Positions 31,684 to 46,480 of a DNA stretch of 64,000 nucleotides are shown piece after piece. This DNA is from Neptunomonas japonica DSM 18939 (GTDB taxonomy: Bacteria > Pseudomonadota > Gammaproteobacteria > Pseudomonadales > Balneatricaceae). Both the position numbers and the translations under genes were made by a program. The notes beneath the pieces are model-generated. The model was given only the letters and a program-made list of their open reading frames with translations. It made no database searches and was not told the DNA's origin. Numbering within the stretch: the first letter of the stretch is position 1; each line of letters opens with the position of its first letter. Location of the stretch: the NCBI RefSeq assembly GCF_000422765.1, contig NZ_AUGR01000017.1, positions 1 to 64,000 on the forward strand. The letters run 5' to 3'.

Positions 31684-32142
31684 TGTCTTATTCTCTTAAT
31701 GATTAGTCTTTAATAACTTATGATAAGTATAAAATAAATATTGATTTATCGCAAATAAATGCCAATAAAAATTCCTATCTAACTCTTTGTTTTTAAAAGA
31801 ATTTTAATAAATATTTCGAGAAAGTTTTATATATGAAGTGTTTTCGTTTAAGTATTTGATTATAAAGAGTTTTTAAGTATGGTTTTTTTGTGATTTTTTA
31901 TAAAAATATTATCAAAACAAGTAATCTAAATTTATATTCGATTTACCATTTTCTATTTTTGATTGCTTGAATCATATCCATAAAATTCGCTGTAAAAATA
32001 GCGGGGTATCACTGATTGAGGAGTGTTGGAAGAGTTCTTTATTAAGATAAAACAAAGGTTTTAACAATAAATGCCGATGAACCTCTCTGCAGGGCAGTAT
32101 TTAGGCTATCTTGTAATTAGTTTGCTAAGGAGATTTTCCACT
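31684..32142. other. AT-rich intergenic region upstream of the che operon
   Basis: These 459 bases contain no credible gene; a frame starting at 32071 simply runs into the STAS gene. The stretch 31700-31990 is strikingly A/T-rich with long T runs. The right end holds a candidate sigma-28 promoter (32054-32080). It probably contains the promoters of both flanking genes and may bind nucleoid proteins. Confidence 0.6.
32054..32080 (+). promoter_or_regulatory. Candidate sigma-28 (FliA) promoter of the che operon
   Basis: The -10-like octamer GCCGATGA at 32073-32080 matches the FliA consensus GCCGATAA in seven of eight positions. At the consensus spacing of 11 bases, AAAGGTTT at 32054-32061 matches TAAAGTTT in six of eight. 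The start of transcription would be near 32087, about 56 bases before the STAS start codon. Confidence 0.55.
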
Positions 32143-32406
32143 ATGGTTTTGCCTGAACACCTGACCATCACTGAAATTGCGCAGTGGAAAGAGAAGTTTC
32201 TCTCTCAAACCAGAGAGTCTTCTGTTTTGAATATCGATACATCTACTCTTAAGAAGATTGACTCGACGGGTATTCAGTTATTGTTTGCTGTGAAGCAAGC
32301 ACTGCAAGCAAAGGAAGGTGATATACATTGGTCGGGCAATTCAGTTGTTTTATCAAAAAGCGCTCAATGGTTAGGTATGAGTGATGCCTTAGGTATTGCT
32401 TGGTAG
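32143..32406 (+). CDS. STAS-domain protein heading the chemotaxis operon
   Basis: This 87-residue protein is a single STAS domain, of the anti-sigma-factor-antagonist type, with the conserved phosphoacceptor-like segment LKKIDSTGIQLLFAV (Ser in DSTG). ATG 32143 is preceded by AAGGAG ten bases upstream. An in-frame ATG at 32071 would lie inside the candidate promoter and is rejected. Single STAS proteins start several chemotaxis clusters in Proteobacteria, where their role is little understood. cheY follows after 18 bases. Confidence 0.85.
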   Translation: MVLPEHLTITEIAQWKEKFLSQTRESSVLNIDTSTLKKIDSTGIQLLFAVKQALQAKEGDIHWSGNSVVLSKSAQWLGMSDALGIAW

Positions 32407-32424
32407 ATTTTTTGGAGATGGTAA

Positions 32425-32787
32425 ATGACAACAATTTTGGTTGTTGATGACTCAGTATCGTTACGCAGCATGGTGACCTTTACATTAACAAAACGAGGCT
32501 ATGACGTTGTTGAGGCTGAAAATGGAGAAGATGCCTTATATAAAGCCAAACATACTGCATGCGATTTGGTTTTAACTGACGTCAATATGCCAAGAATGGA
32601 TGGTATTACTCTGTGCACTGAATTACGTAAATTAGAATCGTTTAAATTTACACCAATCTTAATTCTAACCACTGAAAACTCTCAGGAAATGAAGCATAAA
32701 GGTAAAGCGGCAGGTGCTACGGGTTGGTTGGTAAAGCCGTTTAATCCCGATACTTTGCTGTCCACTTTAAAACGTGTCGTGCGGTAA
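32425..32787 (+). CDS. cheY: Chemotaxis response regulator CheY
   Basis: This 120-residue single receiver domain has all catalytic residues: D8, D9, phosphoacceptor D52 (TDVNMPRMDG), T82 and K104 (VKPF). It would carry the CheA signal to the flagellar switch, or act as a phosphate sink. No output domain is present. It lies between the STAS gene and cheA, consistent with this operon type. Confidence 0.93.
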   Translation: MTTILVVDDSVSLRSMVTFTLTKRGYDVVEAENGEDALYKAKHTACDLVLTDVNMPRMDGITLCTELRKLESFKFTPILILTTENSQEMKHKGKAAGATGWLVKPFNPDTLLSTLKRVVR

Positions 32788-32793
32788 TCTCAT

Positions 32794-34983
32794 ATGAGCA
32801 TTGATCTATCCCAGTTTGTTCCGGTTTTTCTTGAGGAGAGCTTTGAAGGGCTCGAAGTCATGGAGTCAGGCCTTTTAAATCTTGAGGAAGATGATGCTGA
32901 AGCCATCAATGCTATTTTTCGCGCCGCGCACTCAATTAAAGGAGGAGCCGGCACATTCGGTTTCTCTAACATTACCGATTTTACCCATGTGGTTGAAACA
33001 CTTATGGATGAGCTGCGCGCAGGGCGTAGGTCATGCAGTGACTCGTTAAAAAGTGTCTTATTATCATCTGTCGATTGCATACGTTTATTACTTGAAGCGG
33101 CAAGAGACGGAACTTCATGTGACGACCCTCAAATTAAGCAAGTACATCAGCAATTAGAAGCAGAGTTATCTTTTGATAATAAAGATAAGGTTGCAATTGT
33201 TGATAATGAGTTTGAGAAAATTGAGATCTCTTCTTCTCCAGTTGCAGTTAAGGAGACACAAGGTTGGGTGATTGATTTTGCTCCTGCTCCTCATCTACTG
33301 ATGACAGGAAATGAGCCTATTTTATTGATTTCTGCACTAGCGGATCTAGGACAACTAGTTACGTATGCAGCCACAGATCAGGTGCCTAGTTTAGATGAGT
33401 TAAATCCTGAGGAGTTATTCCTACATTGGAAAATAGATCTCTATAGTGATTGTAGCGAACTTGCTGTACGTGAGGTTTTTGAATGGGTAGAGGGTGACTG
33501 CTCACTATCCGTTTTGCCTTTGCAGACGTTGGCAGATGAGGTTTCTGAAGAGAGTGTTCCAAATGATTCAGTATCTGACGAGATAGCTTTTGATAAAGTA
33601 GCGGAGAAGTCTTCGACTGCTTTAGTTTTGAATAACGAAAGTGTAGAGCAACCTACTATCAGGTCTGAAACAGCAAGCTCTAAAAATAATGACGACTCTA
33701 GTGCGGCTCCAGCGCAAAACACAAGAAAAATCCAGGCCGACCAAGGCTCTATTCGCGTCGGTATTGATAAGATTGATGGGCTGATTAATAGAGTTGGTGA
33801 GCTAGTAATTACACAGTCTATGTTAGGACAGGTTGGTTTAGAAATGTCTGACTGTGATCACCCTGGGGTTGAGCGTTTAAATGACGGTTTAGTTCAGTTA
33901 GAAAGAAATACTCGTGACCTTCAAGAAGAGGTAATGAGAATTAGAATGCTACCTATAAGTTTTGTGTTTAACCGCTTCCCAAGGATGGTGCATGACATCA
34001 GCAGCAAGTTGGGAAAAGTGGTCGAGCTGACTCTATCTGGAGAGCAGACCGAGCTGGATAAAACCGTGATGGAAAAAATAGGAGATCCATTATTACATTT
34101 AATACGCAATGCTTTAGATCATGGTTTGGAAACACCGCAAGAGCGTATTGCTACTGGAAAAGCTGAGAGTGGGACGATTCACCTAAGTGCTTCTCATCAA
34201 GGTGGCTTTATTATTATCCAAATTAAGGATGATGGACGAGGGTTAGATACCAATAAAATACAAGAAAAAGCCTTGTCCAGTGGCCTCATTACTACAGACC
34301 AAGTACTCAGTGATTCTGATATCCATGACTTAATATTTGTGCCTGGTTTTTCCACTGTAGCAGAAGTTAATGACCTTTCTGGCAGAGGCGTTGGTATGGA
34401 TGTAGTACGCCGGAATATTGAGGCCTTAGGTGGGTATGTTGCGGTGGTATCTGAAGCAGGAGAAGGTTCTACTTTTACTGTTAGTTTACCGTTGACGCTC
34501 GCTATTCTTGATGGTCAGTTAATAAAAACGCAGCACGAGATTTATATCATACCGTTGCTCTCTATTATCGAGTCTATTTGGGTCTCAACTGAGTCTCTTA
34601 ATGCTGTTGCAGGTCGAGGGCGTTTGTTTTTATTTAGAGATGAGTACATTCCAGTTATTAACCTCAGCGATGTTTTTTGCCTTAGTGAAACGACTAAAAG
34701 TTTTACTAATAGTTTAATGGTGATTGTTGAAGGTGGCGGTAAAAGGGCTGGCTTAATTGTAGATGAGCTGCAAGGTCAGCAGCAGGTAGTAATAAAAAGC
34801 TTAGAGACAAATTATAAGCGAGTAGAAGGTTTTTCCGGCGCAACGATTTTAGGCACAGGACAAGTGGCTTTGATTCTTGATGTGGCAGGTGTCATAAAAA
34901 TGGGGTTGGATTCATCAACAAAGCAGTATCCACATGCAATAAATAAGGATGACGGATACCTATTGGCAAAGGTGGATATATGA
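32794..34983 (+). CDS. cheA: Chemotaxis histidine kinase CheA
   Basis: The 729-residue kinase has the Hpt (P1) domain with phosphorylated H46 in AAHSIKGG, a P2-like domain at about 155-240 (GWVIDFAPAPHLLMTGNEP...REVFEWVEGDC), a Ser/Asp-rich linker to about 315, the dimerisation segment IRVGIDKIDGLINRVGELV, the ATPase with N box LLHLIRNALDHG (N439), GDGRGL-like and GRGVGMDVV boxes, and a C-terminal CheW-like P5 domain. All catalytic residues look intact. cheW follows with a four-base overlap. Confidence 0.97.
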   Translation: MSIDLSQFVPVFLEESFEGLEVMESGLLNLEEDDAEAINAIFRAAHSIKGGAGTFGFSNITDFTHVVETLMDELRAGRRSCSDSLKSVLLSSVDCIRLLLEAARDGTSCDDPQIKQVHQQLEAELSFDNKDKVAIVDNEFEKIEISSSPVAVKETQGWVIDFAPAPHLLMTGNEPILLISALADLGQLVTYAATDQVPSLDELNPEELFLHWKIDLYSDCSELAVREVFEWVEGDCSLSVLPLQTLADEVSEESVPNDSVSDEIAFDKVAEKSSTALVLNNESVEQPTIRSETASSKNNDDSSAAPAQNTRKIQADQGSIRVGIDKIDGLINRVGELVITQSMLGQVGLEMSDCDHPGVERLNDGLVQLERNTRDLQEEVMRIRMLPISFVFNRFPRMVHDISSKLGKVVELTLSGEQTELDKTVMEKIGDPLLHLIRNALDHGLETPQERIATGKAESGTIHLSASHQGGFIIIQIKDDGRGLDTNKIQEKALSSGLITTDQVLSDSDIHDLIFVPGFSTVAEVNDLSGRGVGMDVVRRNIEALGGYVAVVSEAGEGSTFTVSLPLTLAILDGQLIKTQHEIYIIPLLSIIESIWVSTESLNAVAGRGRLFLFRDEYIPVINLSDVFCLSETTKSFTNSLMVIVEGGGKRAGLIVDELQGQQQVVIKSLETNYKRVEGFSGATILGTGQVALILDVAGVIKMGLDSSTKQYPHAINKDDGYLLAKVDI

Positions 34984-35477
34984 CAGAAGCAGTAGAACCC
35001 TTACTTCTGGAAACTCGCCAATTTTTGACTTTTATTTTAGCTGATGAAGAGTATGGGGTAGATATTTTGCGTGTACAGGAGATTCGAGGATGGGTTCCTG
35101 TGACGCGGATTCCTAATTCACCTGGTTACATGAAAGGGGTGCTTAATTTACGCGGAGAAATCATACCAATTATCGATTTACGTATGCGCTTTGGTTTACA
35201 AAGTCGAGAGTATGGAGCCACGACAGTGGTGATTGTTGTCTGGATTAATGGCCCTGAAAGTGAACATTGCATGGGAATTGTCGTCGATGCTGTAGCCGAC
35301 ACCTATGACGTATCTAGTGATGACATACAGCCCGCGCCTTTGATAAGAAATGGCATCGATCCAAAGTTCTTTGAAGCGCTGGCTACAATGAACGAAAAAA
35401 TGGTAGTCCTATTGGATTTAGACTATTTGATGAACTCGGATGAGCAAAGCTGTGTTGATCTGGACCGATTGCAATAG
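34980..35477 (+). CDS. cheW: Chemotaxis coupling protein CheW
   Basis: CheW links receptors to CheA. The 165-residue protein is a single CheW domain with the typical opening FLTFILADEEYGVDILRVQEIRG (LxFxLxxExYGIxIxxVxEI pattern) and the segment MKGVLNLRGEIIPIIDLRMRFG. Its ATG overlaps the cheA stop. The C terminus (DLDRLQ) lacks the acidic-Phe tail shared by three other proteins in the operon. Confidence 0.96.
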   Translation: MTEAVEPLLLETRQFLTFILADEEYGVDILRVQEIRGWVPVTRIPNSPGYMKGVLNLRGEIIPIIDLRMRFGLQSREYGATTVVIVVWINGPESEHCMGIVVDAVADTYDVSSDDIQPAPLIRNGIDPKFFEALATMNEKMVVLLDLDYLMNSDEQSCVDLDRLQ

Positions 35478-35545
35478 TGGATTAATTTGAATATTTATCA
35501 AGCAGGCATTGGTCAAGTGACAGCTCTGTTTGAGGAGAAAGTTAA

Positions 35546-37903
35546 ATGAAAGTTAACATGCCAGTGACTGATCACGAAAGACACGTAATCCCAGGGCAGG
35601 AGTTGGTGACTCAAACTGATCTTAAGGGGCGGATAACTTATGTAAACCCGGCTTTTATTCAGGTTAGCGGTTTTAGCGAAGAGGAGTTGGTCGGGCAGAA
35701 CCATAATGTGGTCCGCCACCCCGATATGCCTAAGGAAGCGTTTGAAGATTTGTGGTCAACATTAAAGCTTGGCCGGCCTTGGTGCAAAATGGTAAAAAAT
35801 CGCTGTAATAATGGTGATTTTTATTGGGTGAAAGCGAATGTAACACCCGTATATAAAAAAGGACAAATTGTCGGTTATATGTCAGTGCGTACAGCTCCCA
35901 CTGATGCTGAAAGACAGTCTGCTGATATTTTTTATACAAAGTTACGTAATAAAGAAGCGCGGTTATCTGACCCTACTAAAATTCCCACACAAATACTTGA
36001 TAAAAAGTTATTTAACTGGGCAGCAATAGCTTTAATAGTAATGCTGTTAATTGCTGGTGGGCTATATAGTTCTGGGCATACTTCACTTATTGCGCTTGGT
36101 CCATTTGCAGCTTTTCTTATTATGCTTTTTGGAGCAGTAAGTTGTATCAGGACTTATGTGAAGCAACCATTATCTGAAACTATTGCCACTCTTAAACGAG
36201 TCAGTGAAGGGGATTATCATACCGATATAGAAGTAGAGCAAGAAGGAGAAATTGGTAGTCTTAACCGTGCTGCGAAATCATTAGCCATTAAGCTTGGTTT
36301 TGAAATAAATGAATCTCGTTTAGAAGCGCTTCGCTCAAGTCGAATCACACAAGCGCTCGATAGTGTCTCATCAAATGTGATGATGGCAGATCCTACGGGG
36401 CGAATTATTTATGTGAACGATGCCATTCTTAACATGTTTAATATTGCTCAAAATGACATTTGCACTGACTTACCAAAGTTTGATTATAAACTTTTACTGG
36501 GAAGCAATATCGATGAGTTTCATGCGGATCCTACTCACCAGAAAAGATTACTAGAAGCGTTAAAGTCATCATTTGAAAGTCGAATTAGTGTGGGAGGGCG
36601 TACGTTTATTTTATTGGCTAACCCAGTCTTTTCTCCTGATAAAGAGCGTTTAGGCACAGTAGTTGAGTGGAAAGATTTAACAGAGCAACTGCAAGCAGAA
36701 AAAGCAATAGAGCGATTGATTCAAGATGCATCTAGCGGCAATTTGAGCCAGCGCTTAGACGATTCGGCTTATGAAGGTTTTATGAAAAATGTAGCTTCTG
36801 GTGTTAATGAAATGCTGGATGCTGTTGTTGAGCCTGTACAAGAAGCTAAGCGTGTACTGCTTGCTTTGGCTGATGGTGACTTAACACAGAATATGCAAGG
36901 TAACTTCTCCGGTGAATATGAAGAACTAAATGATGCACTGAATATTTCGATGAATAAGTTACAAGATATGGTGAGTGAGATCCGCTCAGCTGGCGCTAAT
37001 ATTACTACGGGTGCGTCTGAAATTGCTCATGGCAATGCAACACTGAGTCAGCGAACTGAGAGTCAGGCTACAAGCTTGCAGGAAACCGCAGCGAGTATGG
37101 AGCAGATGACTGTTACCGTGAAGCAAAATGCTGTAAATGCGCAAGAGGCGAGCCGATTAGCAGAACAAGCAAAAGTGCTAGCGGATGACGGTAGTACGAT
37201 ATCCGTGAAAGTTGTTAGCTCCATGGGCGATATCAGTAAGAGCTCTAAAAAGATTGCAGAAATTATCAGCGTTATCGATGAAATTGCTTTCCAGACTAAT
37301 TTACTAGCACTTAATGCCGCAGTAGAAGCTGCAAGGGCGGGAGAGCAAGGCCGAGGATTCGCAGTGGTAGCTGCTGAGGTTCGCAATCTTGCTCAGCGAA
37401 GTGCTAGTGCAGCAAAAGAAATTAAACACCTGATTAGTGATAGCGTAGAAAAAGTTGAAGAAGGTAGTCACTATGTTGATGAGTCGGGGCGTGCACTAAA
37501 TGAAATAATGCAGGGGGTCTTGAAGGTATCTTCTATTATTCATGCAATTGCAGAAGCGAGCCGAGAACAAGCCAATGGTATTGAGCAAGTTAACTTAGCT
37601 GTCACGGCTATGGATGAAGGAACACAACAAAATGCTGCGCTTGTCGAAGAGGTTGCCGCTGCTTCTGAGTCGATGGATGAGCAAGCCCAGCAGCTGCAAC
37701 ATCTTGTAAATGTATTCAAGGTGAGTATTGTTACACCCTCAAATGTTACTCACTTACCAACAATCAATATTAAAAATCAGGGGTGGAAAACAAAGCATTT
37801 GCATTCGGAAGAAGCTGTACGGATTCCTGCTACAGGCTCATATAAAAGTGAAACCATTATTATGAAGGAAACACCTGACGATACTGAGTGGGAAGAATTC
37901 TAA
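35546..37903 (+). CDS. Aer-like PAS-containing chemoreceptor with CheR-docking tail
   Basis: This 785-residue receptor starts with an Aer-type PAS domain (about 10-125) carrying [26 protein letters not shown] and [11 protein letters not shown], the pattern of the FAD-binding energy sensor. Two membrane segments follow (about 152-205), then HAMP, a second PAS (about 265-390), a further HAMP-like linker and the signalling domain with [26 protein letters not shown]. The last five residues EWEEF fit the xWxxF CheR-docking pentapeptide. GAGGAG lies before the ATG. It likely drives aerotaxis or redox taxis. Confidence 0.94.
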
Positions 37904-37940
37904 TGGGTTCTATCGTTTGATTCATAAGGACATTGAAAAA

Positions 37941-38789
37941 ATGGCTGTGATTGACATGGACGTACCACCTGAACGGGAATTTGTTTTTACTGACAAAGAT
38001 TTTGAAACCATACGAAGTCAGCTATATAAACATGCCGGCATTTCCTTGTCTGATTATAAAAAAGATATGGTTTATAACCGCCTAGTGCGGCGTATTAGAG
38101 TGTTATCACTGGATAGCTTTAGCGCTTATTTTTCTTACTTAGCAAGCAATGTAGGAGAGTTTTCACTTTTTATAAATGCATTGACGACTAACTTGACTGC
38201 GTTTTTTAGAGAGAGTCATCATTTTGAATTTCTAAAAGAGGTAGTGATACCTGATGTGGCAGCCAGTGGTTCGCAGCGAGTTCGAATCTGGTCAGCAGGC
38301 TGCTCTATGGGAGAAGAGCCTTATAGTTTAGCGATGGCCCTCGGAACGAGCGATATTGATTTACGCGAATGGGATATTAAAATATTAGCGACAGATATTG
38401 ATTCTGATGTGCTGAAAATTGCTCAAGCAGGTATGTATGGAGCAGATCGCATCGATGCTATGCCTCAGGTATTTCAAACGCGTTTCTTTAGAAAAGGGCG
38501 AGGGCAGTATTCAGGCATGGTTAAAATTGTAGATGAGCTTAGGGCTATGATTACATTCAAAGAGCTGAATTTAATGCACTCCTGGCCGATGAAAGGGCCC
38601 TTAGATGTAATTTTTTGTCGTAACGTTATGATCTATTTTGACAAAAAAACACAAAAGCTACTTTTAAACCGCCTGGCTGATTTATTAAAACCCGGTGGGT
38701 TTCTTTTTGTAGGGCATTCAGAATCACCCTTTCGGTTAACAGATCGGTTTAAATTGATCGGTAATACGATTTATCAAAAGGTCTATTGA
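37941..38789 (+). CDS. cheR: Chemoreceptor methyltransferase CheR
   Basis: CheR methylates glutamates on chemoreceptors with S-adenosylmethionine. The 282-residue protein has the N-terminal helical domain, the SAM motif IWSAGCSMGEEPYSLAM and the motif VIFCRNVMIYF. ATG 37941 with AAGGA upstream gives the usual length; a TTG at 37917 is an alternative. The receptor encoded just upstream carries a CheR-docking tail, which fits the pairing. Confidence 0.94.
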   Translation: MAVIDMDVPPEREFVFTDKDFETIRSQLYKHAGISLSDYKKDMVYNRLVRRIRVLSLDSFSAYFSYLASNVGEFSLFINALTTNLTAFFRESHHFEFLKEVVIPDVAASGSQRVRIWSAGCSMGEEPYSLAMALGTSDIDLREWDIKILATDIDSDVLKIAQAGMYGADRIDAMPQVFQTRFFRKGRGQYSGMVKIVDELRAMITFKELNLMHSWPMKGPLDVIFCRNVMIYFDKKTQKLLLNRLADLLKPGGFLFVGHSESPFRLTDRFKLIGNTIYQKVY

Positions 38790-38790
38790 T

Positions 38791-39417
38791 ATGATCGGAA
38801 ATTGCTTGGAGTCGCCACAGCGAGTATTGCCGGGCTTTGAAAATTCCAATCGATACTGGCTGGAGTCACGAGGTTGTTTCGCCGTGAAAATCAAACCAGG
38901 TGAGTACTATGTTACCCAAAGTAATGAAGCCATTACTACTATTCTCGGTTCGTGTGTTGCTGCCTGTGTTAGAGACCCTGTTACTGGTGTTGGCGGAATG
39001 AACCATTTTATTTTGCCCTTCGCAGAAAGTAAACGAGCAACAGATTGGGCTGATTCTTCACGATATGGTGCCTATGCCATGGAGACCTTGATTAATGCCG
39101 TTATGAAATTTGGTGGTGTTAAGGAACGTTTGGAGATAAAGATTACAGGTGGTGGTCGCATGGTCCAAGGCATGAGTGATATCGGTAAGCAAAATATTAG
39201 ATTTGTTACTCAATACTTACGAGAGGAAGGGTTCGATATGTTGTCAGCGGATGTTGGTGGTGATCAGCCGCGTAATGTTGTGTATTTGCCTCAGCAAGGG
39301 CGTATGTTAGTAAAAAAATTAGCCACTTTACACAATGAGAAATTATTGAAAGCAGAAAGTAACTTTAAAAACAGGTTGGCAGCTGAGCCAATAGGCGGCG
39401 ATGTTGAGTTGTTTTGA
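38791..39417 (+). CDS. cheD: Chemoreceptor glutamine deamidase CheD
   Basis: CheD deamidates glutamine residues on chemoreceptors and in some species interacts with CheC. The 208-residue protein has the catalytic pair Cys55 and His72 in ILGSCVAACVRDP and GGMNHFILP. The C terminus ends in GDVELF, closely similar to the tail of the last protein of this operon. It starts one base after cheR, and cheB overlaps or directly follows. No CheC gene is present here. Confidence 0.94.
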   Translation: MIGNCLESPQRVLPGFENSNRYWLESRGCFAVKIKPGEYYVTQSNEAITTILGSCVAACVRDPVTGVGGMNHFILPFAESKRATDWADSSRYGAYAMETLINAVMKFGGVKERLEIKITGGGRMVQGMSDIGKQNIRFVTQYLREEGFDMLSADVGGDQPRNVVYLPQQGRMLVKKLATLHNEKLLKAESNFKNRLAAEPIGGDVELF

Positions 39418-39437
39418 GCGAGAAAAAGGAGGAGTAC

Positions 39438-40499
39438 GTGGAACGTATTAAGGTCTTAATTATTGATGACTCCACCCTGATATGCCATGTGATAACAGAG
39501 ATTATATCTGCGGATAGCGCTTTTGAGGTTGTGGGTGCAGCTCATGACCCTTATGAAGCGCGGGAAATGATAAAAGAGCTTAAACCCGATGTGCTTACGC
39601 TTGATATTGAAATGCCCAAAATGGACGGCATTACCTTTTTACGCAATTTAATGAGATTACATCCTTTACCGGTCATCATGTTATCAACCTTTACAGCCAA
39701 AGGAACTGATGAAACGTTGACGGCATTGGCCATCGGTGCGATTGATTATATGCCAAAGCCATTAACAGGTGCTCAAGGCATGGCGATAAGTGATTTTGCT
39801 GAAGAGCTAAAAGAAAAGATAAAAGCGGCGGCTAGTTTAAAAAATAAAATTGTAATGCGCCTTCCTCCCGCACAGCGTCCACAATCACCATCTATACTGA
39901 AATCACTGAACTTAGAAAGCAGCATAGGGCAAAAAATCATTGCTATAGGGGCATCGACGGGAGGAACGGAAGCATTACAGGAAGTACTCTCTGTTTTGCC
40001 TAAGGATATTCCTCCCATTGTTATAGCTCAGCATATATCTGCTTCATTTAGTGCTCGTTTGGCAAAACGTATCGACGAAAAAAGTACTATCTCTGTAATA
40101 GAAGCGACTGATGGTTTGACGTTAGAACAAGGTGTTGCTTATTTTGCGCCAGGAGGGTGCCACCTTAAGGTCGAGCGCAGCGGCACAATATTAAAATGCA
40201 GAGTAGAAGATAGTGCTCTGGTAAACCGCCATAAACCTTCAGTTGGTGTGCTGTTTGATTCACTGATTGCAGCAAATGTAGAGACAGCTATCGCTGTTTT
40301 ATTAACTGGTATGGGTAATGATGGTGCGGAAGCGATGCTTCGCTTAAAGAGAGAAGGTGCTTATACAGTTGCTCAAGATGAAGAGAGTAGTTTGATATGG
40401 GGTATGCCTGGTTCAGCTGTTAAATTGGGAGCTGTGGTAGATGTATTACCATTAGAAAAAATATCTCAAGCGTTGGTGGGTAGATTTAAAACACAATAA
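39438..40499 (+). CDS. cheB: Chemotaxis response regulator and methylesterase CheB
   Basis: CheB removes methyl groups from receptors when phosphorylated by CheA. From GTG 39438 the protein has 353 residues, with receiver phosphoacceptor D56 (LDIEMPKMDG) and methylesterase triad S173 (GASTGGTEAL), H199 (AQHIS) and D295 (GMGNDGAEAM). I chose GTG 39438 because AGGAGG ends five bases upstream; an in-frame TTG at 39414 overlapping the cheD stop is the alternative. Confidence 0.95.
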   Translation: MERIKVLIIDDSTLICHVITEIISADSAFEVVGAAHDPYEAREMIKELKPDVLTLDIEMPKMDGITFLRNLMRLHPLPVIMLSTFTAKGTDETLTALAIGAIDYMPKPLTGAQGMAISDFAEELKEKIKAAASLKNKIVMRLPPAQRPQSPSILKSLNLESSIGQKIIAIGASTGGTEALQEVLSVLPKDIPPIVIAQHISASFSARLAKRIDEKSTISVIEATDGLTLEQGVAYFAPGGCHLKVERSGTILKCRVEDSALVNRHKPSVGVLFDSLIAANVETAIAVLLTGMGNDGAEAMLRLKREGAYTVAQDEESSLIWGMPGSAVKLGAVVDVLPLEKISQALVGRFKTQ

Positions 40500-40529
40500 A
40501 TATAGTAGTGCTAAAAATGGATGTGAGTG

Positions 40530-41273
40530 ATGCATAAGAATACAGGGCTAGTTGTTTTAGTTACTTCATTATTAGTACTCATTGCCGCCGAAATTATGGC
40601 TATTCCTAGTGTTCGCTGGGCTGCTGAAGTGGGTTTGTTTTCTGGGGTTTTTCTGGTGGGGTTGCCGTTTATTAAAGGTACTAAATTACCTTCTGATGAT
40701 ACTGTTCAGCAAGCATCAGCTGTACTGGAAAAAGAGATTGTAGCTCCAGTCTTTGATGAAATAGAGCAAATAATAGCTCATGAAACGTTGACTATTAAAC
40801 AGGAAGTGACACGTATTGGTGGACTAATTAAAGAGGCTGTTCAGGTATTAGGCGTCAGTTTTAAAACCGTCAATATGCTCTCTAGTCAACAAAGAGAGCT
40901 TTCAAGTGAGCTCTTGAATAAAGTCAATAATGGAGTTAAAGCTGCTGATGTTTATAACTCTGTTAACGAACATACCCAGATGATAGATGCTTTAGGAGAG
41001 CAACTCGACGGTGCGATTAATCATGCTGTTAGATCGTTACAGTTTGAGGACTTATCTTCACAGGCGTTAGCTGCGTTAGGTCAGAATATTCATTTATTGA
41101 ATCAAGTCGCGGAACAGCTGAAGTTAATATCATTTCAGGATGCTGCGCAAACACAAACACAGATGCATAACTTATTGCGCAGTTGCCGTGCAATAAGGCT
41201 ACAGCAATCGATAGTTGTTAAGCGTCCTGTTACCCAAGTTGGGATGCATGCGGGGGAAGTTGAAATTTTTTAA
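40530..41273 (+). CDS. Membrane-anchored protein with a CheZ-like D-x3-Q signature
   Basis: The 247-residue protein has one or two N-terminal membrane segments (about 6-25 and 35-49) and a long helical, coiled-coil cytoplasmic part. Within it, QFEDLSSQAL (D174, Q178) copies the spacing of the E. coli CheZ active-site motif FQDLTGQ (D143, Q147). The C-terminal GEVEIF resembles the acidic, Phe-ending CheY-binding tail of CheZ. As last gene of an operon lacking cheZ, it may be a membrane-tethered CheY-P phosphatase. That role is inference; the motif and context are seen directly. ATG 40530 adjoins a GTG at 40527. Confidence 0.75.
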   Translation: MHKNTGLVVLVTSLLVLIAAEIMAIPSVRWAAEVGLFSGVFLVGLPFIKGTKLPSDDTVQQASAVLEKEIVAPVFDEIEQIIAHETLTIKQEVTRIGGLIKEAVQVLGVSFKTVNMLSSQQRELSSELLNKVNNGVKAADVYNSVNEHTQMIDALGEQLDGAINHAVRSLQFEDLSSQALAALGQNIHLLNQVAEQLKLISFQDAAQTQTQMHNLLRSCRAIRLQQSIVVKRPVTQVGMHAGEVEIF

Positions 41274-41358
41274 GGAAAGAACCCAGCGATGCTATCTTAG
41301 CCAAGTGCGCGGTGAATGTTGAATATGTATGGCGCGACTCGAAGAGTATTTTAATATA

Positions 41359-41372
41359 TTGATTTAGATCAA
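41359..41372 (+). promoter_or_regulatory. Perfect FNR/Anr box
   Basis: TTGATTTAGATCAA matches the FNR/Anr consensus TTGAT-N4-ATCAA at all ten specified positions. A -10-like TATAAA at 41402-41407 lies at roughly the distance expected of a class II FNR-activated promoter. It lies 171 bases before the start of the 44-residue membrane protein. Confidence 0.7.
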
Positions 41373-41410
41373 TTTTTAGCGTTTAACGCAAAGCTGCTTT
41401 ATATAAAATA

Positions 41411-41424
41411 CTGATAAATATCAA
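41411..41424 (+). promoter_or_regulatory. Second FNR/Anr-like box
   Basis: CTGATAAATATCAA matches the FNR/Anr consensus at nine of ten positions and lies 52 bases downstream of the perfect box. It could serve a second promoter or act as a repression site near the transcription start of the first. Confidence 0.5.
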
Positions 41425-41542
41425 TTGGATAAAATTAGTAATGATAGCTCTGAGCACAAAGGTTGAGCTATATCAATTTTTTCTAATGTGTTCGCGTGTA
41501 ACCTATCTCTAATGATAAAGAATTCTCTATGAGGTGATGGTT

Positions 41543-41677
41543 ATGTTTGGTATTGATCCCTATGTTATGGAAACTCTTATACCCAGTTTGGTGGGGGTAG
41601 CTGCAATGGCAGGTGCAATGATATGGGGTTTCATAAAAATTCGTCATCTGATGAACGATGACCAATCTGGAAAATAG
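41543..41677 (+). CDS. 44-residue single-helix membrane protein
   Basis: The frame encodes an acidic N terminus (MFGIDPYVMETL), one hydrophobic helix (about residues 11-33, rich in Gly, Ala and Met) and a basic then acidic tail (KIRHLMNDDQSGK), suggesting the C terminus is cytoplasmic. GAGGTG lies six bases before ATG 41543; an ATG six bases earlier is in frame. It is flanked by FNR/Anr boxes upstream and a strong terminator 13 bases downstream, so it is a self-contained unit. The family is not recognised. Confidence 0.72.
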   Translation: MFGIDPYVMETLIPSLVGVAAMAGAMIWGFIKIRHLMNDDQSGK

Positions 41678-41689
41678 TTTGAGTCTTCT

Positions 41690-41718
41690 AAAAAAACCCG
41701 CCTTTGCGGGTTTTTTTG
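41690..41718 (+). terminator. Strong rho-independent terminator
   Basis: AAAACCCGC pairs with GCGGGTTTT over a four-base CTTT loop and runs into seven or more T residues. With the flanking A run it could also act on the minus strand. Confidence 0.92.
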
Positions 41719-41879
41719 TTTTATCTTCACACCTTTTCAACTCTTCTTATTCAAAGCATTAGGTATAATACTGCTTATAGTAAACATGTATGAGAATTAA
41801 GTTTAAGCCTGAAATATCTCATAGTGAAAATTTACCTTTTTTCTTGTCATCAATAGGGAGTTATTAGAGGGTGTAACTA

Positions 41880-42302
41880 GTGGCAGATTATCAAATACAA
41901 CCACTGTTATCAGAACACAAGTTAGCGCTTTCCCAATTCTATAAGCGCAATCAATACAAAGGTAAGGTCAAAGGCTCTGATAGGGTTTGGGTTATTGTCC
42001 AAGCGGGTAATCAGGTCGTGGGTGCAGCGCGTTTTTGTCAGCAAGCGGGTTGTACGGTGTTACGAGGTGTTTTGATTGAAAGAGAGTTACGTACCCAGGG
42101 TTTAGGGCATCAGTTACTACAGTATTTACATTGTGAAGGTGAACTCAACGGCTGTTATTGTTTCCCCTATCTTCACCTAGAAGTGTTTTATGCTACGCAT
42201 GGCTTCAAGCGCGTAGAGCCTATTCCCATTTTGTTACAGCCAATTTTAGAGCGTTATAATCGGAAAAATGAGCAAGTGCTCTTAATGGTTAAACAAGCAT
42301 AA
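41880..42302 (+). CDS. GNAT-family N-acetyltransferase
   Basis: The 140-residue protein has the acetyl-CoA-binding motif A of GNAT enzymes, ERELRTQGLGHQLLQYL (pattern R/Q-x-x-G-x-G/A), and the strand-turn VVGAARFCQ before it. The acceptor substrate is unknown. The start is GTG 41880 with AGAGGG upstream. It is probably monocistronic. Confidence 0.82.
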   Translation: MADYQIQPLLSEHKLALSQFYKRNQYKGKVKGSDRVWVIVQAGNQVVGAARFCQQAGCTVLRGVLIERELRTQGLGHQLLQYLHCEGELNGCYCFPYLHLEVFYATHGFKRVEPIPILLQPILERYNRKNEQVLLMVKQA

Positions 42303-42346
42303 CTAAGTAAGGGCTGTGATTCGAGACACTGCTATTTTAGGTGCAG

Positions 42347-43045
42347 TTATTTAGGTTTAGGTGAAAAACGTACTTGCTCTGTATTTAGGGAGAATTCAAC
42401 AGTGACCGGCGACAGTGTTGTTTTATCAGCTTCACTTGCGGTATCACGCTCAGTATATTCGATAGCAATGAGTCGGCCTTGGTTGTCAGGCTCGATGCTA
42501 ACAATGTTTACCCTATCCCCAATAAAAATACTATCGATATGATTGATCGTATGTCGTTTGGTATCTTGTGAAAACAGTCCCAAATAAAAAAATACACCAG
42601 ACCCTTGGTTTGAAACACTAAAAGGGGCTGCGAATATTATCTGATTGTCTTTAATGTCTGCATTAATAGTTCTGATTGTATCGAAATTAAGAGAAATGTT
42701 ACCGCGTTCTTCACCAATAGAATATTGGCCTGTGGCCCAGCGTTGCATCTCCTGTTTTTTAATCTCGTTTAACGGCACAGCAATTGGTGCACTATCTTGC
42801 TCTGGGAGGAATACTATAAAGTCTTGCAAAGTGCGGATGCTGAACAATGACAGCATGACTTTTGAGTAGCCTTTTTTTTCTGCTTCGCGCATCAACTTAT
42901 CGTATTGCACTACTTCACCATCCGCTAACTCAATATAAATATCTGCATTGGTGTAACTGAATTGATAAATGCCCATAATTATTACGATAGTAGGCAGGAT
43001 GATTAGGGATGATAGGGTTATCCAAAAGCGTTTTTTAAAAGCCAT
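42347..43045 (-). CDS. Membrane-anchored periplasmic protein of unknown function, 232 aa
   Basis: The protein has a single N-terminal membrane helix (FWITLSSLIILPTIVIIMGIYQF) followed by a beta-rich soluble domain with motifs IYIELADGEVVQYDKLM and SLFSIRTLQDFIVFLP. I do not recognise the family. I chose ATG 43045 because GGAGG lies six bases upstream; a longer frame from 43171 is unlikely. It has no close neighbour on the same strand. Confidence 0.65.
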   Translation of the reverse strand: MAFKKRFWITLSSLIILPTIVIIMGIYQFSYTNADIYIELADGEVVQYDKLMREAEKKGYSKVMLSLFSIRTLQDFIVFLPEQDSAPIAVPLNEIKKQEMQRWATGQYSIGEERGNISLNFDTIRTINADIKDNQIIFAAPFSVSNQGSGVFFYLGLFSQDTKRHTINHIDSIFIGDRVNIVSIEPDNQGRLIAIEYTERDTASEADKTTLSPVTVEFSLNTEQVRFSPKPK

Positions 43046-43550
43046 TGTGTCCTCCGTAGCTATATGTTGATGCACGCGATAGTTAATTTCTAGCCGCTTT
43101 GCGTCACACGTATTTGTGCTTTCAACTTTCATTATGATCAGAATGTACCAAGTTATATAGGCTGGAAACAAGTAAAAGCCTGATCTATATAGAGTAATTT
43201 GTTGTTAATATTGCATAAAAAGATGAAAGTGCTAAAAGGTATATGTCGTACTTGTTGCGCATTTTTTATTTATTGTTCGAAAAGCACCCAGTTGTTGAAT
43301 CCCTTAATCTGTGGGCTTTAGGGGGATATGTTCAATTGAAACTGACATACTTATCCACAAGAAGTGTGAGTATCTTTTTAAAAACAAAATTATGTGTTCA
43401 GCGTCCCCTGTAAAAGGAAAGGTCAGCTAAACTTTGTTGTGTTTGATAGGTTCGGCGGTGTGTTTCTCAGTATGCGATGAGAGTGTTCTTTGCCTAAGAT
43501 AATAAATATATGAAGCAATAAAATATCTGATAGCTATAAGGGACGAAAGG
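43046..43550. other. Gene-free divergent region
   Basis: About 500 bases separate two divergent envelope-protein genes. They are AT-rich and hold no credible frame. A single perfect DnaA box (TTATCCACA at 43351) is present but expected by chance about every two such windows. Promoters for both neighbours must lie here; none is clear. Confidence 0.5.
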
Positions 43551-44099
43551 ATGCGTAAGGTTGTTATTCAAAGGGTAGTTATGGCTGTATTGTTACTTGT
43601 CTCAAGAGGTGCTGTGGCTGAGAACTTTGTTTTACAAAGCTATCTCTCATTTACGCATTCTCTTAGTAGGGCAATCAGCCAGCAATACACAGAAAGTGCA
43701 GGCTTGACGTTAGATTCGGTGATGGTTGATTACCAAGGTCAGCCTGTAAGTTACCAATACCAAATGTGGCGCTTGAAACCTAATAGTGTGTGTTTACCCT
43801 TAAAAGATATTGATGTGCTGCAGTACTCTCAGTGTTCGATGGCGGCGCAACAGTTGTTTAAAGAAACCTGTAGGCAATTTATAAATAATCCCAATAGAAA
43901 AGATTGGTTGTATCCGAAATATAAGCGTTTGTATTGCAACGCTGCAGCAAGTTTTCAACCGGTTGTGGCTCAAGTGAGACTTTCATTGCCTGTGGAAGAA
44001 AATACAGTGAAAAAACAGCAATGCTCACTTCTTGTCTTAAAAGCTATGAGCAGTCGTGACCCATTGGATATACAGCTAAGAGATGAAGCATGCCAATAG
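43551..44099 (+). CDS. Secreted six-cysteine protein of unknown function
   Basis: The 182-residue protein has a signal peptide (MRKVVIQRVVMAVLLLVSRGAVAEN, cleavage near AVA-EN). The mature part holds six cysteines, in SVCLP, YSQCS, KETCR, LYCNA, KQQCS and DEACQ, enough for three disulfides, so a periplasmic or secreted location is likely. AAAGG precedes the ATG. No family is recognised. Confidence 0.65.
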   Translation: MRKVVIQRVVMAVLLLVSRGAVAENFVLQSYLSFTHSLSRAISQQYTESAGLTLDSVMVDYQGQPVSYQYQMWRLKPNSVCLPLKDIDVLQYSQCSMAAQQLFKETCRQFINNPNRKDWLYPKYKRLYCNAAASFQPVVAQVRLSLPVEENTVKKQQCSLLVLKAMSSRDPLDIQLRDEACQ

Positions 44100-44160
44100 C
44101 TCCGTAGTTGTATTGCCTAAGCCGTACAGAATAAAATAGGCACGTTAAACGTGATGAATG

Positions 44161-44194
44161 CATGGTTGGAGTTTTTTGCCCAACCATGTCTTTT
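44161..44194 (+). terminator. Terminator after the six-cysteine protein gene
   Basis: CATGGTTGG pairs perfectly with CCAACCATG over a ten-base loop, followed by TCTTTTGT. The T tract is short. Confidence 0.65.
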
Positions 44195-44250
44195 GTATCA
44201 ATATTCATCTGCTTAGTTGATGCTAATTGAATGAGCACGTGTTTGTGATA

Positions 44251-44808
44251 TTAGACATTTAGGTTTACTAATAACTCTATTGTGCTGCTTACGTTGGCAT
44301 ATGATGAGCTAAGCGCTGCCATAAACGCTGCATGTACATGAGCAGCAGGTACCGTTGTGCCATTAAATTCCAGATCACGTGTAGCACAAGCATCATGCGC
44401 TACCGATACCTCATAGCCTAGATCTGCGGCCGCACGAACGCCTGCATCGATACACATATGGCTCATTGCACCAATAATAATGAGTTTTTCTACCTTCAGT
44501 TTTTTAAGCACCTCTTGAAGCTCGGTATCACGAAAGCTATTAGGTTTGTGTTTGAGAATAACAGTTTCATTTTCTAGTGGGGTTACTGAGTGATGAATTT
44601 TCGCACCCTCAGATCCTTCTAAAAAGAATGGCGCGTTAGCTGTTAAAAATTCATGGCGAACATGAACGATAGGTAAACCTTGGTTGCGAAATGTTGTCAG
44701 TAGTTTAGCGCCTTGCTCCGCGGCTGCTTCAGCACCGCTGAGTGGCCATTTACCCTCTGAAAAATAATCGTTTTGAAAGTCGATTAATAATAATGCTGTA
44801 TGGGACAT
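44251..44808 (-). CDS. Isochorismatase-family cysteine hydrolase
   Basis: The 185-residue protein has the triad of the isochorismatase-like hydrolases: D10 (LLLIDFQNDYF), a lysine in LKHKPNSF (K88) and Cys119 in GAMSHMCIDAG. Family members hydrolyse amides such as nicotinamide, biuret or N-carbamoyl compounds, but the substrate here is unknown. It is divergent from a GlxA-type regulator, a pairing often seen with this hydrolase subgroup, which suggests that regulator controls it. Confidence 0.9.
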   Translation of the reverse strand: MSHTALLLIDFQNDYFSEGKWPLSGAEAAAEQGAKLLTTFRNQGLPIVHVRHEFLTANAPFFLEGSEGAKIHHSVTPLENETVILKHKPNSFRDTELQEVLKKLKVEKLIIIGAMSHMCIDAGVRAAADLGYEVSVAHDACATRDLEFNGTTVPAAHVHAAFMAALSSSYANVSSTIELLVNLNV

Positions 44809-44922
44809 ATGTACTCTTCCTATCTTATTGTGGAGTTTGTATTGAGGTGTTGTGACTATTATCTTAAAAAGCAGGTCTATATACTGGAGTCATAATAGGC
44901 ATATAAAAGGTTAGAACTGACA

Positions 44923-45879
44923 ATGGTCCTGATTCATATAGGCATTATTGATTACCCAGGTGCACTTCAATCTGCTGTTCAAGGTCTTAAAGAGATGTTC
45001 ATTGCAGCAAACCGTATCTGTGTACAGCAAGATCTGACTATCGCTTTTGATATAGACATATACAATGTTGAACAGGTTTCAGTATCTTCGACTAAGGGGT
45101 TTTTAGAGGAGCAGCAGACGAGTAACCCATTACAAGTTGTGATTCTTCCCCCTTGTCTGGAGGGTGAGTATTACATTGGCCCAGATCAAAACCTTAAAGA
45201 GTGGTTATTAGAGCAGCGTGCACAAGGCGTGATACTTTGCTCCGTATGCGCTGGAGCTTTTATCCTGGCTTCTTGCGGGTTATTGGATCAGCGTCCGGCG
45301 ACGACACATTGGGGCTTGGCTGAACGCTTTAACAAAACTTATCCCACCGTCCTTTTAGACAGTAATAAAATATTGATAAACGATACTGATCTTATTACAG
45401 CGGGTGGCCTTATGGCGTGGCTGGATTTAGGCCTGGAGCTGGTGGCTCAGTTTACTCAACCGCGCATAATGCGATTACTAGGGAAGTATTTGATTGTTGA
45501 TACAGGCTCACGAGAGCAGCGCTATTATCGTAGTTTTGTGCCAGCGCTAAATCATGGTGATCAAGCCGTCCTTACTGTGCAGCATCATTTGCAGGTTAAT
45601 TTTGCTAAAAATATTTCGATGAGTGATTTAGCAGCACTAAGTTGTCTAGGTGAACGTACTTTTTTACGGCGCTTTGTTAAAGCAACAAAACTAAAACCCA
45701 GCCAGTACTTGCAGCAGTTACGTATCCAAAAAGCCTGCGACTGGATTGAAAGTAGTTACGACAGTGTAGAGCTTATAGCCGCAAAAGTGGGTTATGAAGA
45801 TGTGAGTGCATTTCGTAAAATATTTATTAAAACGATGGGGCTGACTCCGCGTGAGTTTAGACACCGCTTTGCGCATTGA
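44923..45879 (+). CDS. GlxA-family transcriptional regulator (DJ-1/PfpI plus AraC HTH)
   Basis: The 318-residue protein has an N-terminal DJ-1/PfpI domain (about 1-190) with the cysteine elbow SVCAGAFILASCGLL and the THWGLAERF segment, and a C-terminal AraC DNA-binding domain (about 220-315) with two helix-turn-helix units and the signature VGYEDVSAFRKIFIKTMGLTP. Such regulators sense small metabolites. The neighbouring hydrolase transcribed in the opposite direction is the likely target. Confidence 0.92.
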   Translation: MVLIHIGIIDYPGALQSAVQGLKEMFIAANRICVQQDLTIAFDIDIYNVEQVSVSSTKGFLEEQQTSNPLQVVILPPCLEGEYYIGPDQNLKEWLLEQRAQGVILCSVCAGAFILASCGLLDQRPATTHWGLAERFNKTYPTVLLDSNKILINDTDLITAGGLMAWLDLGLELVAQFTQPRIMRLLGKYLIVDTGSREQRYYRSFVPALNHGDQAVLTVQHHLQVNFAKNISMSDLAALSCLGERTFLRRFVKATKLKPSQYLQQLRIQKACDWIESSYDSVELIAAKVGYEDVSAFRKIFIKTMGLTPREFRHRFAH

Positions 45880-45883
45880 GCAT

Positions 45884-45911
45884 AAAAAACCGGCTGGAGT
45901 TGCCGATTTTT
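45884..45911. terminator. Bidirectional terminator between convergent genes
   Basis: A stem with AAAACCGGC and GCCGATTTTT (one mismatch), extendable outward with GCATAA and TTATGC, lies between the GlxA regulator gene and the convergent AhpD-like gene. A and T runs on both sides allow use in either direction. Confidence 0.65.
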
Positions 45912-45940
45912 CTTATGCGTTGTTGTATGTACTTTGAAGG

Positions 45941-46480
45941 TTATAGAAAAGCAGAAAAGCGCTCATCGAGTGGCGTATCTGCTAAGTGGTTAATGTAGTT
46001 GCTCATGATTTTTTGGGCCAAGCCTAACACTATCTCTAATAACTGCTTCTGGGTATAGCCTGCGTCATAGAAGTTTTGTACTTGTGCTTCAGAAATTAAA
46101 CCACGGTTACGAACGATGGCTAGGGTTGTGTCATGCAATGCCTGTAGCTTAGGGGTAGGCATTGGACTACGGCTGCGCAGTGCGACAGTAAGTGCATCGT
46201 CTACTTTCATCATTTTTGCAATGGCGGCATGAGCGGGAACACAGTAGTGGCAGCCATGTTCAACGTTAATAGTTTGCCATACTACAGTAAGCTCTTCTGC
46301 ATCCAGAGAGGTTGCTTGGAAAAGCTTGTGGAGTAATTGGTAGGCCTCAAGCGCTTCAGGTGATTCAGCCATAACACCGTGTAGGCTGGGGATAGAGCCA
46401 AATGCTTTAATAGAGTTGTCTAGTAGAGCTTTGCTTTGTTCTGGAGCGGTTTCGCGAGTGTGTACATTAAGGTTGTTCAT
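45941..46480 (-). CDS. Carboxymuconolactone decarboxylase/AhpD-like protein
   Basis: The 179-residue helical protein has the redox motif CHYC (C77, C80) followed by H84 in GCHYCVPAHAAI, the signature of AhpD-like peroxidase or reductase members of the CMD family. A role in disulfide or peroxide metabolism is likely. It is divergent from a TetR regulator over a large palindrome, so it is the probable regulated target. Confidence 0.88.
   Translation of the reverse strand: MNNLNVHTRETAPEQSKALLDNSIKAFGSIPSLHGVMAESPEALEAYQLLHKLFQATSLDAEELTVVWQTINVEHGCHYCVPAHAAIAKMMKVDDALTVALRSRSPMPTPKLQALHDTTLAIVRNRGLISEAQVQNFYDAGYTQKQLLEIVLGLAQKIMSNYINHLADTPLDERFSAFL

Follow-up and report, generated by a model that had tools for sequence, protein, structure and literature searches.

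A conserved C-terminal motif shared by CheD and a tip-less McpA-type protein in the che cluster of Neptunomonas japonica, and its possible link to a CheZ-like phosphatase family

The chemotaxis (che) cluster of Neptunomonas japonica DSM 18939 raises the question of why three of its proteins carry acidic C-terminal tails that end in phenylalanine. The cluster occupies positions 32071-41273 of the window, which is the whole stretch of 64,000 nucleotides that was analysed (contig NZ_AUGR01000017.1, positions 1-64,000, forward strand), and encodes on the forward strand a STAS-domain protein, CheY, CheA, CheW, an Aer2-like receptor, CheR, CheD, CheB, and a last protein of 248 residues. The tails are as quoted in a first-pass annotation (receptor, TEWEEF; CheD, GGDVELF; last protein, AGEVEIF), where they were read as one convergence within the operon on a shared partner, CheY or CheR. 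They fall instead into two classes, a CheR pentapeptide type in the receptor and a separate conserved motif, G[DE][VI][DE]LF, in CheD and the last protein. The latter two proteins end alike because the tail is an old conserved part, which in the last protein and its relatives (here called ZL) stands together with a CheZ-like motif.

The receptor (35546..37903), which has PAS, HAMP, and MCP domains (PF00015, E 2.4e-52; NCBIfam Aer2 model, E 1e-170, below the model's cut-off), fits the CheR pentapeptide pattern x-[HFYW]-x-x-[HFYW] at its end (EWEEF codons, 37886..37900), and its earlier assignment to the xWxxF CheR-docking type held. Of 195 complete receptors exceeding 450 amino acids (aa), 168 had W, F, Y, or H at the W position; of the other 27, 7 had a tail of the CheD/ZL type. 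Neither CheD nor the last protein fits the pattern, both having V at this position, and an aromatic residue was found there in 0/213 CheD. The motif thus shares with the receptor pentapeptide an acidic C-terminal peptide and the Phe end, but has V or I in place of W and is carried by CheD and ZL rather than by the main receptors. Docking to CheR, with the motif acting as a weaker version of the receptor pentapeptide, is an idea suggested by a tail length and Phe end equal to those of EWEEF; it is very improbable because the two classes do not mix and because the valine variant of Pseudomonas aeruginosa McpA is bound by none of 4 CheR homologues (PMC7184735).

The likeness between the tails of CheD (38791..39417; tail codons GDVELF, 39397..39414) and the last protein (40527..41273; tail codons GEVEIF, 41253..41270), both read from the sequence, is more than chance, because a count of the codon pattern G-[DE]-[VIM]-[DE]-[LIMF]-F-stop over the whole genome (4.39 Mb) gave two occurrences, one in cheD and one in the last gene, against 0 in a backward control. 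CheD itself was assigned by PF03975 (E 3.1e-26, 92.1 bits against a cut-off of 25) and by the PRK13487 model, which matched to its last position (201/201). Conservation was assessed in 221 CheD loci, namely the window, 140 fetched CheD regions (drawn mainly from the better-scoring hits of two Pfam CheD searches, with matches in 121/369 class genomes and 96/293 order genomes), and 80 further loci that were ranked by their match to a tail-containing query, so that these 80 lean towards the tail. The core [VIA][DESTN][LIF]F was found within the last 20 CheD residues at 213 of the 221 loci (window, 1/1; fetched regions, 133/140; further loci, 79/80), the eight CheD without it being those of L056, L100, L112, L113, L115, L116, L118, and L244. 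These 213 cores had G at position -5 in 176, D or E at -4 in 166, V or I at -3 in 210, E or D at -2 in 205, and L at -1 in 206. The lack of conservation in relatives that would have refuted the first-pass reading was thus not seen for CheD and the McpA-type proteins encoded in operons of this kind, although at 20 additional, lower-scoring CheD loci the tail was present in 0/20.

Among 13,415 complete open reading frames (ORFs) of at least 60 aa in the 221 loci, a strict form of the tail was found in 236, comprising 149 CheD, 84 ZL, and 3 other receptor-like proteins, which bears out the earlier view that CheD and the otherwise unrelated last protein share one tail. A degradation signal, or another signal read from a free C-terminus, might be suggested by the short, hydrophobic end but is hardly credible. 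Of 213 CheD, 160 end with the Phe of the core, 50 have 1-3 residues after it, and 3 have more, and a free carboxylate is apparently not required, given these 53 CheD with at least one residue after the core; moreover, the strict tail was confined within the loci to chemotaxis proteins.

Variants of the tail were also recorded. Longer receptor-like proteins at L226 (771 aa) and L244 (972 aa) end in TGDVELF and AGEVELF, and the L244 CheD ends in SVELWD. At L095, L102, and L140, FF replaces LF in the CheD and ZL tails alike (L102, SITFF/SISFF; L140, DITFF/EITFF), and L056 and L100 are odd too; such paired changes, a possible sign of a shared partner, single out no partner because the receptor tails differ there too. 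ZL-like proteins at L300 and L301 (QFQDRTSQ and QFQDRTDQ) end in VTFF beside a tail-less CheD and an F7-like CheY, so the ZL tail does not require the CheD tail. Beyond the class and order, the CheD of six plasmid loci ended in GDVELF (Azospirillum oryzae), MELF with 3 further residues (A. brasilense), SSIEFF (Shinella and Sinorhizobium), and VELF with 10 further residues (two Cupriavidus). No core che gene was found among the genes annotated on the plasmid near the A. oryzae (L307) and A. brasilense (L310) genes for VELF- and MELF-tailed CheD; one MCP lay about 5 kb off at L307. The labels F7 and F6 are used here on the basis of gene order and of models built from neighbours, not of a published classifier.

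The last protein is a McpA-type receptor without the MCP signalling tip. Used as a query, it gave matches in 11/293 order genomes, its own included; the readable matches at L003, L006, L009, L011, and L012 were receptors of about 390-440 aa that carry the MCP tip and end in a tail of this type, and that at L005 was without the tip. When aligned with six McpA-type receptors, the last protein was seen to keep the hydrophobic N-terminus, the pre-tip stalk, and the C-terminal part, while the tip columns were empty, and no match to the MCPsignal domain was obtained. Its best relative in the fetched loci was a 405-aa McpA of a Neptuniibacter metagenome-assembled genome (L229; E 2.9e-24, 31% identity over 244 aligned residues). 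Neither the last protein nor eight tip-less relatives could be assigned to a meaningful family of Pfam or NCBIfam. With the McpA-like receptors described for F7 clusters (PMC7184735) it shares the place after cheB, a similar stalk, and the conserved tail (AGEVEIF) in which V occupies the second position of the pentapeptide, seen also in relatives; it differs from them, as do other ZL members, in having no MCP tip. Further tip-less ZL members are encoded after cheB (L078, L165), before cheR (L131, L139, L173), and before cheY (L118, L130, L273, L274, L280, L284, L285). The ZL family includes small soluble proteins beside the receptor-type and tip-less membrane forms. At L118 a soluble ZL (ending GSVELF) precedes cheY, CheD is tail-less, and the search used found no receptor ORF in the 18 kb region.

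What joins these proteins, apart from the tail, is a second element. Tail-bearing proteins other than CheD nearly always carry QFxDxxxQ about 60-90 residues before the end, which in the last protein is QFEDLSSQ (codons at 41040..41063). Among 6,722 complete non-CheD ORFs of at least 100 aa, 81 had tail and motif, 6 the tail only, 43 the motif only, and 6,592 neither (Fisher p 2e-147, relatedness uncorrected). In the same order, the counts were 30/3/38/6,392 for proteins without the MCP tip and 36/2/3/189 for those with the EAARAGE tip. Three of the six tail-only proteins (L040, L110, L256) keep QxxDxxxQ with F replaced. In an alignment of 28 selected tip-less ZL (12-53% identity to the first; most other tip-less members are without the tail), the only invariant columns were Met1, the Q, D, and Q of QFxDxxxQ, and the terminal Phe.

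This motif resembles the catalytic site of CheZ (PF04344), the phosphatase that terminates the chemotaxis signal; AXXFQ and DXXXQ are conserved in CheZ (PMC7750401), and its action at the CheY active site involves a Gln together with an acidic residue (PMC3035606). In 92 ZL motif windows, A stood at -5 in 37 and S in 28, with F at -2 in 90; the last protein (SLQFEDLSSQ) has S for A in AxxF, with D and Q at the CheZ spacing. For comparison, the CheZ of the host's order has A-Q-x-[YF]-Q-D-[LI]-[TS]-G-Q in 15 sequences parsed from 28 loci, and a C-terminal tail ending in Phe. CheZ (PMC7750401) and ZL proteins are alike in being helical, with AxxF-x-DxxxQ, a Phe-ending C-terminal tail, and a gene often beside cheY. 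The comparison with the CheZ tail made in the first-pass annotation was therefore a good lead, the ZL family having the CheZ-like catalytic motif as well. The differences are that position -1 in ZL is mostly E, Q, or Y, that the tail is G[DE][VI][DE]LF rather than DDLLSSLGF, that many ZL members have an MCP tip or membrane helices, and that there is no significant sequence match.

The lack of detectable CheZ homology would also agree with ZL being a non-catalytic scaffold or localisation protein, with structural D and Q residues and a tail that gathers CheD, ZL, and a common partner, for example CheA, at the array. A structural role of the motif is possible because in both structure models described below the helix breaks at its first Q, and the corresponding region of CheZ has been linked to polar localisation (PMC7750401). 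D and Q at the CheZ spacing, invariant in 28 diverged proteins, go beyond the needs of a coiled coil, however, and this explanation is judged unlikely.

ZL was also found to accompany CheD in genomes. It lay within the fetched region at 94/221 CheD loci, and at most 400 bases upstream of cheY at 18 of these 94. In 26 genomes hand-picked from the 121 loci with a tailed CheD and no nearby ZL, ZL was found elsewhere in 24, with the best match in a 157-226 aa ORF in 18; these distant ZL are known as model matches, several of which stop short of the tail. ZL was found in 1/20 order genomes without a CheD match and in 0/10 of those having CheZ; the difference between 24/26 and 1/20 has p 9e-10, relatedness uncorrected. 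Of four genomes with a tail-less CheD, ZL was found in G118 and not in G036, G257, or G101; the operons of G036 and G257 (L115, L116) have an F6-type CheY and CheZ. When 27 of 71 CheD-bearing genomes from other classes of the phylum were searched, 20 matched the ZL model at E <=0.01, 16 of them reaching its last column. In three genomes from other classes (G665, G678, and G703), the ORF that matches the ZL model is 330-357 aa long and is situated about 2 kb from CheD. Glu was present at T+2 of CheY in 138/160 F7-like CheY (22 not parsed), and CheY Glu 89 is assigned a role in dephosphorylation by CheZ in the title of structure 1mih.

The partner of the tail was approached with AlphaFold2 on monomer read-through fusions, one of the L273 ZL with its adjacent CheY and one of the window CheB with the last protein. 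In the former (mean predicted local distance difference test score [pLDDT] 83.5, predicted template modelling score [pTM] 0.70), the tail residues I-E-L formed a strand, the only one in ZL, which must therefore pair with CheY. The tail block of this model had a pLDDT of 62 against 45 for the linker after it. In the latter (pLDDT 78.6, pTM 0.46), the tail was below 50, disordered, and without a strand. The models weakly favour CheY over CheB as the tail partner, a preference that stays weak because one CheY partner was modelled, without coordinates or a scrambled control. Of the two shared partners first proposed, CheY is thus kept, on weak structural evidence, and CheR is dropped. Fold searches with both fusion models returned CheY, receiver, and CheB chains and were uninformative on the ZL part; a PDB sequence search with one ZL protein gave no useful match.

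Docking to CheB, with the V/I class recruiting CheB alone to CheD and McpA, would suit the gene order, in which cheD and the last gene (mcpA) flank cheB, and the detection of CheB at 209/221 CheD loci. Receptor pentapeptides bind CheB besides CheR, as in P. aeruginosa, where the dissociation constant of CheB2 for the McpB pentapeptide is 93 uM (PMC7698151). Set against this are the disordered tail in the CheB fusion model and the retention of CheB at L115, L116, L112, and L113 though the CheD tail is lost there; the link between motif and tail and the position of ZL beside cheY would also be left unexplained. Together with the non-catalytic scaffold, CheB docking is the chief rival of the explanation preferred below, but we consider it improbable.

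The explanation that we tentatively prefer is that ZL is a CheZ-like phosphatase family, that the tail is a CheY-docking motif, and that CheD uses the same motif for feedback. One of the long ZL helices, which carries [AS]xxFxDxxxQ, would insert its Asp and Gln into the active site of CheY-P in the manner of CheZ, where the Asp is D143 in Escherichia coli. The G[DE][VI][DE]LF tail would be a linear motif by which the CheY of the same operon is docked and kept at the catalytic site; CheY target peptides bind the alpha4-beta5-alpha5 face. ZL takes three forms: free and soluble, joined to McpA-type receptors as their C-terminal part, and, in the window, anchored in the membrane as an McpA that has lost the receptor tip and kept motif and tail. 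The CheD tail would bind the same CheY, through which CheY phosphorylation could regulate the deamidase CheD. This would parallel the role of CheC and CheY-P towards CheD in Bacillus (PMC3513319), where CheD is likewise tied to a CheY phosphatase and CheY-P, with the difference that here the CheD tail is proposed to bind CheY directly. Phosphatase activity, CheY as the partner, and feedback on CheD are what we infer; the tails and their conservation, the link between motif and tail, the missing tip, and the co-occurrence of ZL with CheD are observations.

Several results weigh against this explanation. A Pfam scan gave no CheZ match for the last protein or for nine ZL proteins, a CheZ model built here gave no significant ZL match (best E 0.03), and profile comparison of ZL with CheZ gave P 0.008-0.05 at low probability, which is not significant. 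These three results give no support to placing ZL in the CheZ family by homology, and ZL is not filed as CheZ because no match to the CheZ family model exceeded the cut-off. Below the cut-off, the Pfam CheZ search matched G032 (E 1.8e-4) and, on the contig that carries CheD, G035 (E 4.3e-4). To the same side belong the partial circularity of the ZL motif counts, the ZL model having been built from motif-bearing proteins, the reliance on model matches for the distant ZL, and the low confidence of the modelled tail (pLDDT about 62) in a single fusion per partner without a tail-scrambled control. The tailed proteins of L049, L059, and L085 are without D...Q. A tail-less CheD stands beside an F7-like CheY at L112 and L118, and 7/20 of the lower-scoring CheD loci, all without the tail, encode a CheY that fits the F7 model better than the F6 model; in the two Cupriavidus plasmid regions, CheD keeps VELF with only an F6-like CheY in reach.

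The F7 stage 1 order (STAS, cheY, cheA, cheW, aer2, cheR, cheD, cheB, mcpA, STAS, serine phosphatase) is matched in the window up to the mcpA place, with one cheW. The first gene encodes the STAS-domain protein (32071..32406; PF13466, E 8.8e-9) and is followed by cheY (32425..32787; PF00072, E 7.9e-30), the product of which is the proposed docking partner. The tail was said to be absent from the remaining che proteins, and this was found to be correct for CheA (32794..34983; Hpt, H-kinase_dim, HATPase_c, and CheW domains; ending LLAKVDI), CheW (34980..35477; PF01584, E 7.6e-38; ending VDLDRLQ), CheR (37917..38789; PF01739, E 3e-65; ending TIYQKVY), and CheB (39414..40499; PF01339, E 2.7e-58; ending VGRFKTQ). 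In related clusters, for example L110, a response regulator-PP2C protein of about 550-580 aa follows McpA. No ORF of such size was present downstream of the last gene in 41274-46480, where ORFs of at least 100 aa were listed, and the usual sigma-factor output genes may therefore be missing in the window. The genome encodes a separate CheZ elsewhere.

In print, the McpA tail is described as strikingly conserved and important, with an unclear role, and the location of McpA in the F6 array is called puzzling in view of its co-evolution with the F7 system (PMC7184735). The same source includes cheZ, for stages 1 and 2, only in F6 systems. The CheZ-like motif and the CheD tail are not mentioned in the examined parts of that paper, and a term search in PMC7184735, PMC7698151, and PMC9855816 gave no mention of the CheD tail match or the motif. 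Within a limited coverage of the literature, and hence as a weak negative, no source was found for the identity of the McpA and CheD tails, the CheZ-like motif, or stand-alone ZL proteins. Overproduction of McpA raises swimming in Shewanella oneidensis, for which signalling via the F6-type Che3 system was invoked (PMC9855816); a phosphatase acting on CheY might be an alternative reading of this effect, if S. oneidensis McpA has the motif.

In its widest form, which is possible but rather doubtful, the proposal would make McpA-type chemoreceptors receptor-phosphatase fusions. One branch of the proteobacterial che systems, for which cheY but no cheZ has been described, would then use a phosphatase family of its own, in soluble, receptor-fused, and tip-less membrane forms, with G[DE][VI][DE]LF as the CheY-docking code of the branch and CheD thereby under direct control of CheY phosphorylation. 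If true, a phosphatase unit that docks CheY through its tail would be relevant to the role of the McpA tail, to the puzzle of the co-evolution of McpA with F7, and to the restriction of cheZ to F6; it would also provide the missing step that ends the signal and would connect CheY directly to CheD.

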